A stretch of DNA of 64,000 nt. Source: Salinisphaera hydrothermalis C41B8. Its GTDB lineage: Bacteria > Pseudomonadota > Gammaproteobacteria > Nevskiales > Salinisphaeraceae. Within the stretch, counting starts at the first letter, position 1. The number at the start of each line of letters is the position of its first letter. Shown piece by piece: positions 35,828 through 41,711 of the stretch. The notes under the pieces are model-generated. The model ran no database searches and was not told the origin of the DNA. It saw only the letters and a list, made by a program, of their open reading frames with translations. The translations under genes were made by a program, and so were the position numbers. The stretch is from contig NZ_APNK01000009.1 in the NCBI RefSeq assembly GCF_000732535.1, forward strand, positions 62,001-126,000, read 5' to 3'.

Positions 35828-36958
35828 ATGGCACAGAGCCAGAATACCGCCGGCCTGGCGGGCGTGACCGCCGGCAAGACCGCCATCTGCACGGTCGGGA
35901 AGGAAGGCGTCGGACTGACCTATCGCGGCTATGCCATCGACGATCTGGCGCGCCGCGCCGAGTTCGAGGAAGTGGCTTATCTGTTGCTCTACGGCGAGCT
36001 GCCGACGCGCTCCCAGCTGGAGGACTACAAGCGGCGCCTGGCGGCGCGGCGCGGCCTGCCGCAAGGCGTGAAGACCGCGCTGGAAGTGCTGCCGGCCGAT
36101 ACGCATCCGATGGATGTGATGCGCACCGGTGCCTCGGTGCTGGGCACGATCGAGCAGGAAAACGATCCGGCCGCCCAGCAGCACGATGTGGCCGATCGGC
36201 TGCTGGCCGCATTTCCGTCGATGCTGTTGTACTGGTATCACTTCACCCATTCGGGCGACCGCATCGAGGTCGAGACCGACGACGACCGTATCGGCGCGCA
36301 TTTCCTGCATTTGCTGCACGGCGTGCGGCCGGACGAAGAATCGATCAAGGCGATGTCGACCTCGCTGATTCTCTATGCCGAGCATGAATTCAACGCCTCG
36401 ACCTTCACCGCGCGGGTGATCACGGCCACGCTGTCGGATTTCTACTCGGCCGTGGTCGGGGCGATCGGCGCGCTGCGCGGTCCGCTGCACGGCGGCGCCA
36501 ACGAAAAAGCCATGGCGCTGATCGAGTCGTTCTCCGATCCGGATGATGCCGAGGCCGGGCTGCGCCGGATGCTGGCGAACAAGGAAAAGATCATGGGCTT
36601 TGGGCACCGGGTCTATAAGACCGGCGACCCGCGCAATCCCATCATCAAGGCCTGGTCGGAACAGCTGGCCGGCGACGATCCCGAGCGGCGCAATCTGTAT
36701 GCGATCTCGGAGCGCCTCGAGCAGGTCATGCAGGATGAAAAAGGCATGTTCCCCAATGCCGATTTCTATCACGCCACGGCCTATAACTTTCTCGGCATTC
36801 CGACCGAACTGTTCACGCCGATCTTCGTGATCTCGCGACTGACCGGCTGGGGGGCACATATCTTCGAGCAGCGGGCCGACAATCGCCTGATTCGCCCGAG
36901 CGCCGATTATATCGGGCCTGACACGCGCGAATTCGTGCCCATCGACGCACGCGGCTGA
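35828..36958 (+). CDS. prpC: 2-methylcitrate synthase / citrate synthase family
   Basis: A 376-residue citrate-synthase-fold enzyme of the short type (CitY/PrpC). Catalytic residues are in GPLHGGANE (His), GFGHRVYK (His) and NADFYHATAYNFLGIP (Asp). N-terminal LAGVTAGKTAICTVGKEGVGLTYRGYAIDDLA is PrpC-like. It condenses propionyl-CoA and oxaloacetate; activity with acetyl-CoA is possible. Close to acuI and upstream of a PrpD-like gene. Confidence 0.88.
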   Translation: MAQSQNTAGLAGVTAGKTAICTVGKEGVGLTYRGYAIDDLARRAEFEEVAYLLLYGELPTRSQLEDYKRRLAARRGLPQGVKTALEVLPADTHPMDVMRTGASVLGTIEQENDPAAQQHDVADRLLAAFPSMLLYWYHFTHSGDRIEVETDDDRIGAHFLHLLHGVRPDEESIKAMSTSLILYAEHEFNASTFTARVITATLSDFYSAVVGAIGALRGPLHGGANEKAMALIESFSDPDDAEAGLRRMLANKEKIMGFGHRVYKTGDPRNPIIKAWSEQLAGDDPERRNLYAISERLEQVMQDEKGMFPNADFYHATAYNFLGIPTELFTPIFVISRLTGWGAHIFEQRADNRLIRPSADYIGPDTREFVPIDARG

Positions 36959-36995: not shown

Positions 36996-37388
36996 ATGAT
37001 TCTGGCTTACTGGTGCGTGCTGATCGCCGCCTTCATGCCGCTGGGCTTCATCGGCTACGCGAAATTCGCCGGCAAGAACAAGATGGGCCCGCGCGAAAAC
37101 CATACGCCGCGCGAATGGCTGGATCGCACCGAAGGCGCCCAGAAACGCGCCTACTGGGCGCAGCTCAACAGCTTCGAGGCGTTCCCGCCGTTCGCGGCCG
37201 GCGTGATCATCGCTGTGATCGCGGGCGGCGCGATCGGGGCCGTCAATACGCTGGCGGTGCTGTTCATCCTCCTGCGGCTGATCTACGGCTGGTGCTATAT
37301 CACCGACCGCGCCACGTTGCGCAGCCTGGTCTGGTTCGCCGCCACGGCCTGCACCGTGGCCCTGTTCATCACCGCCGCCGTCGGCTGA
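36996..37388 (+). CDS. MAPEG-family membrane protein
   Basis: A 130-residue four-helix membrane protein. The segment ENHTPREWLDRTEGAQKRAYWAQLNSFEAFPPFAAGV is characteristic of MAPEG proteins, a group of glutathione-dependent or eicosanoid-type enzymes; bacterial members are mostly uncharacterised. Preceded by AAGGAG. It lies in the acuI-prpC block, 37 bases after prpC. Confidence 0.82.
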   Translation: MILAYWCVLIAAFMPLGFIGYAKFAGKNKMGPRENHTPREWLDRTEGAQKRAYWAQLNSFEAFPPFAAGVIIAVIAGGAIGAVNTLAVLFILLRLIYGWCYITDRATLRSLVWFAATACTVALFITAAVG

Positions 37389-37525: not shown

Positions 37526-39352
37526 ATGCAGACGAAACGACTCAATCTGGTGGATACCGCCTGGCTCAACGTGGAAACGCCCAACGCGCCGATGCAGGTC
37601 GGCGGGCTGCTGACATTCAAGATCCCCGACGATGCGCCGGCGGATTTCTGTGAGCGCCTGGTCGAGCACTGGCGACGTTACCCAACGGCCTTTCGCCCCT
37701 GGAATCAGCGTTTGCGCTCCGGCCGCCTGCGCAGCGTCGTGCCCGAATGGGAGCTGCTCGACGAAATCGATGTCGACTATCACTTCCGGCATTCGGCGCT
37801 GCCGTCGCCCGGCGGCGAACTTGAACTGGGTACGCTGACTTCGCGGCTGCACAGTCACCCGATCGACTTCGACTATCCGCCGTGGGAATGCCATCTGATC
37901 GAGGGCCTGGAGGACCGGCGCTTCGCGATCTACCTCAAGGTGCATCATTCGCTGATCGATGGTGTGGCCGGCATGCGGCTATTGGCGCGCGCGCTCGACG
38001 GCACGGCCGAAACCCGCGGTCGACCGCCGTTCTGGGCGATCGAGCCGAAGAAGCGACCGCGTAAGCCGCCCGAGGAAGTCCGCCCCGGCCTGTATCGCGC
38101 GGTCGCCCAGATGATCGGCGGCACCCGGGAACAGGTGACGTCGCTTTCCGGATTCGCGGGCGTGGTCCGCGATATGCTGCGGGCGGCTCGCTCCGGCAGC
38201 AATGCGATGGGGCTGCCGTTTGCCGCGCCGAGTTCGGTGCTCAACGGCCGGATCACCGCGCCCAGACGGTATGCGACCCAGCTGTATTCGCTGGCCGAGC
38301 TGCGTGGGCTAGCGCGCAACGCCGGCGGCACGGTCAACGATATCGTGCTCACGATCTGCGGCACGGCGCTGCGGCGCTATCTGCTCGAGATCAACGCGCT
38401 GCCGAAAAAGGCACTGACTGCGGGTATCCCGGTATCCGTACGCACGGCCGACAGCGACGACCAGGATGAGCACGGTAATGCCATTACGTTCATCATTTCG
38501 ACGCTGGCCACGGACGAGCCCGACATGCGCAAGCGCTTCGAGACGATCGCAGCGTCGACGCGGGCGGCCAAGGCAAGCCTGGAGAAGTTATCCGCTTCGG
38601 CGATCACCCAGTACACGATCGCGTTGATGTCGCCGTATATCCTGTCGCTGGTTTCCGGCATGGCCGGGCGGACGCGGCCGGTATTCAACGTGACCGTGTC
38701 CAACCTGCCGGGGCCGCGCAAGCCGCTGTATATCAATGGCGCCGAGATGGAGGTGTTCTACCCGACGTCGCTGGTCACCCACGGTCAGGCGCTGAACATC
38801 ACCGTGCACGGCTATGCCGATACGCTGGGCTTCGGCTTCATCGGTTGTCGCGACAGCCTGCCGTCGCTGCAGCATATCGCGGTCTATGCCGGCGAAGCGT
38901 TGGACGAGCTGCGCCAACTCTACGGTCAGCCGGCCAGCGCGCCGGCAGCAAGCGCCGCCGAACCGGCGGAGGCCACGCCCGCTCAACCGGCCCCGACCAA
39001 GGCCCGGAGTCAGGGCAAGACCCAAGCCAAGACCCAAGCCAAGACCCAAGCCAAGACCCAAGCCAAGACCCAAGCCAAGACCCAAGCCAAGACCCAAGCC
39101 AAGACCCAAGCCAAGACTGAGGCTCGCAAACGATCGACTGGCACGTCCGCGCGTAGCCGGGCCAAACCCCGCCAGGCCAAAACCAGCCAGTCCAGCGGGG
39201 ATGGCAAGGCCGCCGGCAGCGGTCGCAGCGCCACCCGGCAGAGCAAGAGCGGGGCGAAAAACGCGTCCAATAAAACGCGCAGCCCACGCCAGGCCGCCAA
39301 GACGACCCAGGACAAGAAAACGACCGGCCCGTCGAGCGATTCGAATGACTGA
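37526..39352 (+). CDS. Wax ester synthase/diacylglycerol acyltransferase with long basic C-terminal tail
   Basis: A 608-residue protein. Residues 1 to about 465 are a complete WS/DGAT with catalytic HHSLIDG at 140-146, [11 protein letters not shown] before it, and [18 protein letters not shown]. It joins fatty alcohols or diacylglycerol with acyl-CoA to make storage lipid at the inner membrane and lipid droplets. The extra about 140 residues are rich in Lys, Ala, Thr, Gln, Ser and Arg, and include eight perfect KTQA repeats (498-529), resembling the histone H1-like tails of PhaF/AlgP. Most WS/DGATs end near residue 460. The tail is in frame and has normal GC-rich codons. Confidence 0.9.
39017..39112 (+). 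repeat. Eight perfect 12-bp tandem repeats in the WS/DGAT tail
   Basis: Unit AAGACCCAAGCC, eight uninterrupted identical copies, encoding Lys-Thr-Gln-Ala each time; a ninth degenerate unit (KTEA) follows. Unit length of 12 keeps the frame under slippage, so copy number can vary between strains without breaking the enzyme. Confidence 0.97.
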
Positions 39353-39390: not shown

Positions 39391-40836
39391 ATGAGCCACG
39401 ATAACCGTTCCGCCTCGCGCGTCCCCTTCGATACCGTCATCACCCGCATCGCCGATTATGTCTGCGACGCCGAGATTGACAGCGCCGAAGCCCTGGAAAC
39501 CGCCCGCTACTGCCTGATCGACACTCTGGGCTGCGGCCTGCAGGCGTTGTCTTACCCGGCCTGCACCAAGCTCATGGGGCCGGTGGTCGAAGGCGCCACA
39601 CTCGACAACGGCGCGCGCGTACCGGGCACGTCCTATGCCCTGGACCCGGTGACGGCTGCCTTCAACATCGGCTGCATGATCCGCTGGCTGGACTTCAACG
39701 ACACCTGGCTGGCTGCGGAATGGGGTCATCCGTCGGACAACCTCGGCGGCATCCTCGCCGTGGCCGACTATGTCTCCCGGCGCAACATTGCCCGGGGCGA
39801 GGCCCCGCTGACCCTGCGTGATGTGCTGGTGGCCATGGTCAAGGCGCATGAAATCCAGGGCGTGCTGGCCCTCGAAAACAGCTTCAACCGGGTCGGTCTG
39901 GATCACGTCCTGCTGGTGCGCATCGCCACCTGTGCCGTGGTCACGCAGATGCTCGGCGGGACCAGGGACGAGGTGACCAACGCGGTGAGCCACGCGTTTA
40001 TCGATGGCGGCGCGCTGCGCACCTATCGCCATGCGCCCAATACCGGCCCGCGCAAGTCCTGGGCGGCCGGCGACGCGACCTCGCGCGGCGTGCTGCTGGC
40101 GTTGCGTGTGCTGCGCGGCGAAATCGGCTATCCGTCGGCGCTGACCGCGCCGACCTGGGGTTTTCAGGATGCGCTGTTCCGTGGTGAAGAAATCACGCTC
40201 GGCCAGGACTTCGGCAGCTATGTCATGGAGCAGATCCTGTTCAAGATCAGCTTCCCGGCCGAATTCCATGCCCAGACTGCGGTAGAGGCCGCACTGACGT
40301 TGCACCCGGAAGTGGTCGACCGGCTCGACGATATCGACCGTATCCGGATCGAGACCCAGGAATCCGGCGTGCGCATCATCGACAAGACCGGCCCGCTGGA
40401 TAACCCGGCCGATCGCGACCACTGCATTCAGTACATGGTGGCGGTTCCGCTCATCTTCGGTCGCCTGACCGCAGCTGACTACGAAGACAATGTCGCCGCC
40501 GATCCGAGGATCGATGCGCTGCGCGCCAAGATGGAAGTAGTCGAGAACGAGCGCTTTACGCGCGAGTATCTGGAAGCCGACAAGCGCGCCATCGGCAATG
40601 CCGTGCAGGTGTTCTTCAACGACGGATCGGCGACCGAGAACGTCTCCGTCGACTATCCGATCGGGCATCGCCGGCGTCGCGACGAGGGGATTCCCGAGCT
40701 CAAGAAAAAGTTCGCGGCCAATTTGGCGCTCAAGATCGCGCCGAAGAACGCAGGCCGGATTCACGAGATCGTCGCCGATCAGGCCCGGACCGAAGCCACG
40801 GCCGTACCGGATTTCACCGATCTATTCGTTGTCTGA
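39391..40836 (+). CDS. prpD: 2-methylcitrate dehydratase (MmgE/PrpD family)
   Basis: A 481-residue MmgE/PrpD protein, the usual length. Characteristic parts are [100 protein letters not shown] and [20 protein letters not shown]. It dehydrates 2-methylcitrate in propionyl-CoA breakdown. It is separated from prpC by MAPEG and WS/DGAT genes; prpB and prpF/acnD are not in the window. Confidence 0.92.
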
Positions 40837-41255: not shown

Positions 41256-41624
41256 CTACCAGCGGCCAAACACGCCGCGGTCATCGTCGTCGTGGTGCCA
41301 GCCGTCGCGGGCGTAGCGATGGTCATAGCGATGATCGTCGCCATAACGGCGATGATCATAGTGATCGCGATGCTCGCCGCGCCAGCCGTAGCGATGGTCC
41401 CGGTCGTAGCGATAGTGGCGATAGTCGCGCCGGTCGTGATCCCGGTAATGGTCGTGATCGCGATGAAACGTGCGATGCATGTCGTCACGATCGTGGTGTC
41501 GATAGTGATCGAAGTCGTGGGCCTGGGCGGCACCGATGCCGGTGGCGAGCAGCGCCAGGACGGCCAGCGGCGCGCTGAACCGCGTGAGCCAGCGCGAGCG
41601 AGACTGGGTATTCGTCTTGTTCAT
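41256..41624 (-). CDS. Secreted His/Asp/Arg/Tyr-rich protein, unknown function
   Basis: A 122-residue protein. Start at 41624 is preferred as GGAG lies upstream and a signal peptide follows (SAPLAVLALLATGIGAAQAH). The mature part of about 80 residues is almost wholly His, Asp, Arg and Tyr in short repeats such as HYRDHD, DRDHRY and DDHRYDHRY, with no hydrophobic core. It may bind metal ions in the periplasm or be intrinsically disordered. A comparable composition occurs in RcnB-like proteins, but the RcnB domain itself is absent. Confidence 0.65.
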   Translation of the reverse strand: MNKTNTQSRSRWLTRFSAPLAVLALLATGIGAAQAHDFDHYRHHDRDDMHRTFHRDHDHYRDHDRRDYRHYRYDRDHRYGWRGEHRDHYDHRRYGDDHRYDHRYARDGWHHDDDDRGVFGRW

Positions 41625-41682
41625 GAGGATCTCCGTGCCGAGCGCGATGCTCGTTTCGTGATACTGAAGCCAGTCTAGGCGC

Positions 41683-41711
41683 ATCGTATGAATCGTTCAT
41701 TAATAATTTAA
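41683..41711 (-). promoter_or_regulatory. Candidate promoter of the His-rich gene
   Basis: On the minus strand, TTAAAT (41711-41706) and TACGAT (41688-41683) are 17 bases apart, about 60 bases upstream of the start codon, in an AT-rich island. A dyad ATGAA-TCG-TTCAT (41688-41700) lies between the boxes and may be an operator. Confidence 0.35.

Follow-up and report, generated by a model that had tools for sequence, protein, structure and literature searches.

A WS/DGAT acyltransferase of Salinisphaera hydrothermalis C41B8, encoded as a 608-residue open reading frame with an ATG start at 37526-39352 (+) of the window (the whole stretch of 64,000 nucleotides analysed here), ends in a basic tail of 142 residues, which is an extreme case of a recurrent and apparently little-described trait of gammaproteobacterial WS/DGATs. 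We propose, with a probability of about 0.4, that this polycationic and mostly disordered tail may serve as an electrostatic anchor which holds the enzyme on an anionic surface.

An intact enzyme with a basic extension

According to the original prediction the gene encodes a full WS/DGAT with the motif HHSLIDG at residues 140-146, and the family searches agree with this. In a Pfam scan PF03007 (residues 6-274, 218.5 bits) and PF06974 (residues 317-462, 116.6 bits) both scored above their curated cut-offs, TIGR02946 matched residues 6-465 with 418.2 bits against a cut-off of 310, and the active-site motif HHxxxDG was found at the predicted position (37943-37963), with H140, H141, D145 and G146 invariant in the alignment A1. 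Judged by its sequence, the window protein is a normal WS/DGAT, and its predicted enzyme domain is intact. It shares the catalytic body up to residue 467, HHxxxDG included, with the AtfA family, whose solved structures 6CHJ (E=2.7e-94 across residues 6-463) and 7NXG match it only as far as residue 463, so that its extra part comprises residues 467-608; it differs from them by this 142-residue basic tail, which lies beyond the solved structures.

The earlier description of about 140 residues rich in Lys, Ala, Thr, Gln, Ser and Arg is confirmed by the composition of the tail (A30 T20 K20 S18 Q16 R10 G9 P9 D4 E3 N3), from which V, I, L, M, F, W, Y and C are all absent and which has a net charge of +23, or 0.16 per residue. 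A Pfam scan of the tail found no domain, and a search for its homologues elsewhere in the same genome gave no match under E 0.03. Inside the tail the DNA unit CAAGACCCAAGC forms an array that reads as (AKTQ)n and has no synonymous divergence among its repeats, the exact copy number being uncertain, as it depends on a 91-contig assembly. AlphaFold2, run on a thin alignment of 12 sequences, gave pLDDT <50 at residues 471-502 and 538-608; across the array it modelled a long helix (residues 498-537, pLDDT about 60-76), to which we attach little weight, because perfect repeats are often over-predicted as helices.

Table 1. Features of the WS/DGAT locus in the window and of related loci in genus g163
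Feature	Position	Strand	Basis
prpC/citrate-synthase-type gene, upstream, position conserved	35828..36958	+	synteny
MAPEG-like membrane protein by look, upstream, position conserved in genus	36996..37388	+	synteny
WS/DGAT catalytic and C-terminal domains, residues 1-467	37526..38926	+	PF03007, PF06974, TIGR02946, 6CHJ
Basic C-terminal tail, 142 residues, mostly predicted disordered	38924..39349	+	composition, AlphaFold2 pLDDT
Tandem repeat of the array unit, 12 bp x 8.5, 100% identity	39016..39117	+	Tandem Repeats Finder
Stop codon TGA, 38 bp before prpD	39350..39352	+	
prpD-like gene, downstream	39391..40836	+	synteny
HAD-PlsC fusions beside WS/DGAT, g163	L282:9323-11119, L286:9006-10856, L288:9171-10874, L290:9476-11227		

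The tail is real and exceeds chance

The tail is real in-frame coding sequence. The catalytic reading frame runs through it unbroken to the stop codon, with a high GC3 (0.77). A frameshift or assembly error, which was to betray itself by a tail missing from the orthologues of close relatives, is ruled out by this frame, the GC3, the stop codon, the downstream gene and the orthologues in 13 other genomes of the genus, which are tailed at the same site.

Lysine accounts for 14% of the tail residues; the figure is 3.0% for nine nearby genes of the window (binomial 1e-8), and a base composition of 64% GC would predict 1.7% (binomial 5e-13). This enrichment persists when the AKTQ array is cut down (4e-5 and 7e-8, respectively). 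The net charge of its last 140 residues (+23) places the window protein highest among 338 predicted proteins, sampled from about 460 kb, or about 11% of the genome, and called by a simple codon-usage script of which a few calls may be wrong. The mean of the sample is near -2, and basic ends as a genome-wide trait are thereby ruled out. The same sample contains a DeaD/DbpA-type RNA helicase (G000:C23:29087-31012, i.e. L270:9087-11012, minus strand) with a strongly basic C-terminal tail, whose last 60 residues (net +19) stand at the top of the 338 proteins at that length.

The gene lies in a conserved block, compared in those Salinisphaera genomes that have enough flanking sequence and with neighbours named by look or similarity rather than by a family scan, which consists of LD-transpeptidase, pdxH, quinone oxidoreductase-type, prpC-type and MAPEG-type genes, the WS/DGAT, and then glnS and rsmG. 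A prpD-like gene stands between WS/DGAT and glnS in four genomes only (G000, G009, G012 and G010); the conserved flanks together with this patchy occurrence suggest a gain or loss at the site. Further along the window, at 41256-41684 (-), lies an open reading frame for a small protein that begins much like a signal peptide and is very rich in His, Asp, Tyr and Arg over the rest of its length; it may be exported and bind metal.

Turnover of the tail within Salinisphaera

An orthologue of the enzyme occurs in all 14 genomes of Salinisphaera, Salinisphaera sp. GH4 (L034) among them, and its C-end is basic in every one (net +2 to +23). By contrast, paralogous WS/DGATs of these genomes have short ends that are near neutral or acidic, with a net charge between -4 and +2. 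The lengths of the orthologous tails span a sevenfold range (20, 25, 27, 36-45, 63, 88 and 142 residues), most sister orthologues having only 20-45 tail residues and a net charge of +2 to +11. Lysine is several-fold above expectation in most of these tails despite the 64% GC; in the orthologues of G002 and G013, with about 20-27 tail residues, it is near expectation. The motif TAK[KR][KR], present in 8 of 13 orthologue tails, is missing from the window protein.

In the closest species (G009, a one-contig genome) the core of the enzyme is 92% identical and the tail has 88 residues, from which the AKTQ array is absent; the array is therefore recent, and the comparison of the two predicted proteins shows that the extra tail length in the window species is partly the product of a recent in-frame repeat expansion. 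The pN/pS ratio is 0.42-0.79 in the tail and 0.03-0.10 in the core, and the aligned genes likewise show a tail whose sequence turns over quickly and whose composition is retained.

Such a pattern would also be produced by a largely neutral tail of low complexity, changed in length by slippage in repeats coding for Lys, Ala, Thr and Gln and contributing at most to solubility, and this explanation, which we consider somewhat unlikely, draws on the perfect DNA repeats without synonymous divergence, the lack of the array in the closest species, the tail pN/pS of up to 0.79, the sevenfold length range and the many WS/DGATs that manage without a tail. However, drift at 64% GC would lead to a tail rich in Arg, Pro and Gly with about 2% Lys, and not the 14% seen; moreover, basic tails are kept throughout the genus, as they are on each of the 30 WS/DGATs sampled from another gammaproteobacterial genus (g163), and the Salinisphaera paralogues are never tailed in this way.

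Basic tails recur among gammaproteobacterial WS/DGATs

A search of WS/DGAT homologues for such tails and a comparison of their phylogeny, both put forward by the original prediction, found tails that recur on the core tree. We gathered 198 C-ends by HMM and sorted the 188 gammaproteobacterial ones, of which 70 have a net charge of at least +5; as the survey took the best-scoring matches first and is non-random, 70/188 is no population estimate. The threshold is reached by 9 of 13 distinct Salinisphaera orthologues, none of 13 Salinisphaera paralogues, 29 of 111 other WS/DGATs from the same order, 2 of the 21 remaining ones of the class and all 30 of genus g163, which are Lys-tailed and come from genomes picked on account of two basic tails among them; among WS/DGATs from Mycobacterium and Gordonia the count is 0/34. 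Short basic tails are common in the order to which the enzyme belongs; long ones occur in one further gammaproteobacterial genus, g163, whose tails are shorter than the window tail but richer in Lys, with up to net +29. On a core tree in which many branches are weak and gain is indistinguishable from loss, the trait requires 20 changes, 14 of them imposed by branches with good support, whereas shuffling raises the number to about 61, and therefore the basic tail recurs.

These counts rule out a basic tail unique to the window protein. The earlier view that it is not usual for the family holds for its extreme length, the longest among the surveyed C-ends, and fails for its kind, which recurs across the genus and in the 70 C-ends mentioned. 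Descriptions of basic tails of WS/DGATs were not found in a small search of the open-access literature, subscription journals lying outside it. In the genome G082, which belongs to the same order, the WS/DGATs L192 on C42 and L218 on C4 have tails of 127 and 96 residues rich in Ala, Lys, Pro and Ser, which resemble AlgP and histone H1 more than the window tail does.

Comparison with granule- and droplet-tethering proteins

Polycationic C-termini are known from several proteins of storage bodies. The C-termini of PhaF and PhaM are histone-like (PMC13052382), AlgP has KPAA repeats and associates with polyphosphate granules (PMC9239181), and MLDS of Rhodococcus jostii binds lipid droplets to DNA via a Lys-rich C-terminus with PAKKA (PMC5504291). 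With these precedents for granules and for lipid droplets, the tail of the window protein might bind DNA non-specifically and link droplets or the enzyme to the chromosome, for their spacing and their sharing at division, as the original prediction had it. The AKTQ array, modelled as a helix, places one Lys per four residues, which is the KPAA spacing, and some tails of g163 and same-order WS/DGATs come far closer to H1 or AlgP, with stretches such as AAKKAPAAKKAPAAKKASATKK in L159 and AKAPAKAKAAARKSPAK in L192. Yet none of the results points to DNA rather than to another anionic partner; the motifs PAKKA, AKKA, S/TPKK, KPAA and AAKP, all sought in the window tail, occur there zero times each, the charge density is modest, the orthologous tails, mostly short and weakly charged, would make weak tethers, and a droplet-sited rather than a membrane-sited enzyme has to be presumed, for which reasons we regard a nucleoid tether as unlikely.

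The resemblance to known systems is therefore partial. Like PhaF, PhaM and AlgP, which are linked to granules, the window protein has a basic C-terminal tail, and the spacing of one Lys to every fourth residue is common to AlgP and the AKTQ array; unlike them, it has no phasin domain, carries AKTQ instead of AAKP or KPAA and has a lower charge density. PhaC is present in Salinisphaera, but in a search limited to the family PF05597 this phasin domain was absent from the window protein and from all 14 genomes of the genus, and PhaF itself therefore plays no part there; a PF05597 phasin partner is ruled out on this ground, as well as by the lack of any evident Lys-rich protein beside phaC. The actinobacterial MLDS/TadA/HBHA proteins are likewise linked to lipid droplets and Lys-rich at the C-terminus, MLDS binding DNA and HBHA phosphoinositides (PMC5504291, PMC6176652). 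These are no acyltransferases, and their tail is placed on separate droplet proteins, whereas the window tail sits on the acyltransferase itself, is less Lys-rich and is without the PAKKA of MLDS.

Some other polyanion or partner, such as polyphosphate, RNA or an acidic protein, may be bound instead, with a condensate or clustering of the enzyme as the outcome. Polycations of this sort bind many polyanions, the granule association of AlgP is a case in point (PMC9239181), and the basic tail of the RNA helicase in the same genome sample agrees with it; we nevertheless rate such a partner as very unlikely.

A proposed electrostatic anchor on a lipid surface

WS/DGAT has been described as soluble and amphiphilic, with electrostatic interactions as its sole attachment to the membrane (PMC5407786). 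Since its membrane hold is known to be of this nature, and a polycation without hydrophobic residues would add to it, we place an electrostatic anchor first among the readings. The tail would keep the enzyme, itself soluble, on an anionic surface. The likeliest candidate is phospholipid, either in the inner membrane or in the droplet monolayer, where the diacylglycerol and fatty alcohol substrates would lie and nascent droplets would form. A longer tail would give a wider reach and a stronger binding. Bulk charge and flexibility alone would be needed and no exact sequence, which fits the free variation in tail length.

This anchor is supported by the contrast between the 14 basic orthologues and their near neutral or acidic paralogues from the same genomes, by the recurrence of basic ends among gammaproteobacterial WS/DGATs, and by the retained Lys, which counts in its favour as 64% GC would neutrally give Arg. 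Also in its favour, a Lys-rich tail in HBHA is required both for phosphoinositide binding and for the formation of lipid inclusions, though the binding of PIP2 needed, according to the authors, more than positive charge alone (PMC6176652), which speaks against the anchor. Against it are also the lack of a hydrophobic or amphipathic element that could be inserted into a droplet monolayer and the short tails of G002 and G013 with their unremarkable Lys content. A basic tail is lacking from the majority of gammaproteobacterial WS/DGATs and from every actinobacterial one sampled, so that catalysis in the family is independent of it. It is prior knowledge that makes lipid appear more likely than DNA as the partner of the tail.

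A second tailed lipid enzyme and implications

Next to WS/DGAT, a divergent gene at four loci of g163 encodes a HAD-PlsC fusion (PF12710+PF01553), which has a basic tail of its own (87-130 residues, net +14 to +30, rich in Lys and Arg) with one or two copies of the motif [KR]VSA[RK], found also in several WS/DGAT tails of g163. HAD-PlsC beside WS/DGAT is a type of neighbourhood already known, and HAD-type hydrolases were proposed, so far without proof, as a source of diacylglycerol for WS/DGAT (PMC10351704). The shared tails suggest a common site of action for the lipid pathway in g163; coming from another genus, they have no direct bearing on the window protein, and a search of Salinisphaera for a tailed HAD-PlsC fusion gave just weak partial matches across the HAD part.

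It may even be speculated, as a quite improbable extension, that gammaproteobacterial WS/DGATs, and in one genus HAD-PlsC as well, repeatedly gained H1/AlgP-like tails which would site neutral-lipid synthesis on the nucleoid or on a shared polyanionic scaffold. If so, the tailed enzyme itself would do what the separate MLDS and HBHA do in actinobacteria. To our knowledge, the placement and inheritance of neutral-lipid droplets in bacteria are poorly known except in Rhodococcus. Since the enzyme that completes the pathway recurrently carries a basic tail, this tail would offer a simple handle on droplet placement, for which natural material is at hand in the variants of the genus with tails of 20-142 residues, a tail-less paralogue from the same genome and a second tailed lipid enzyme in another genus.
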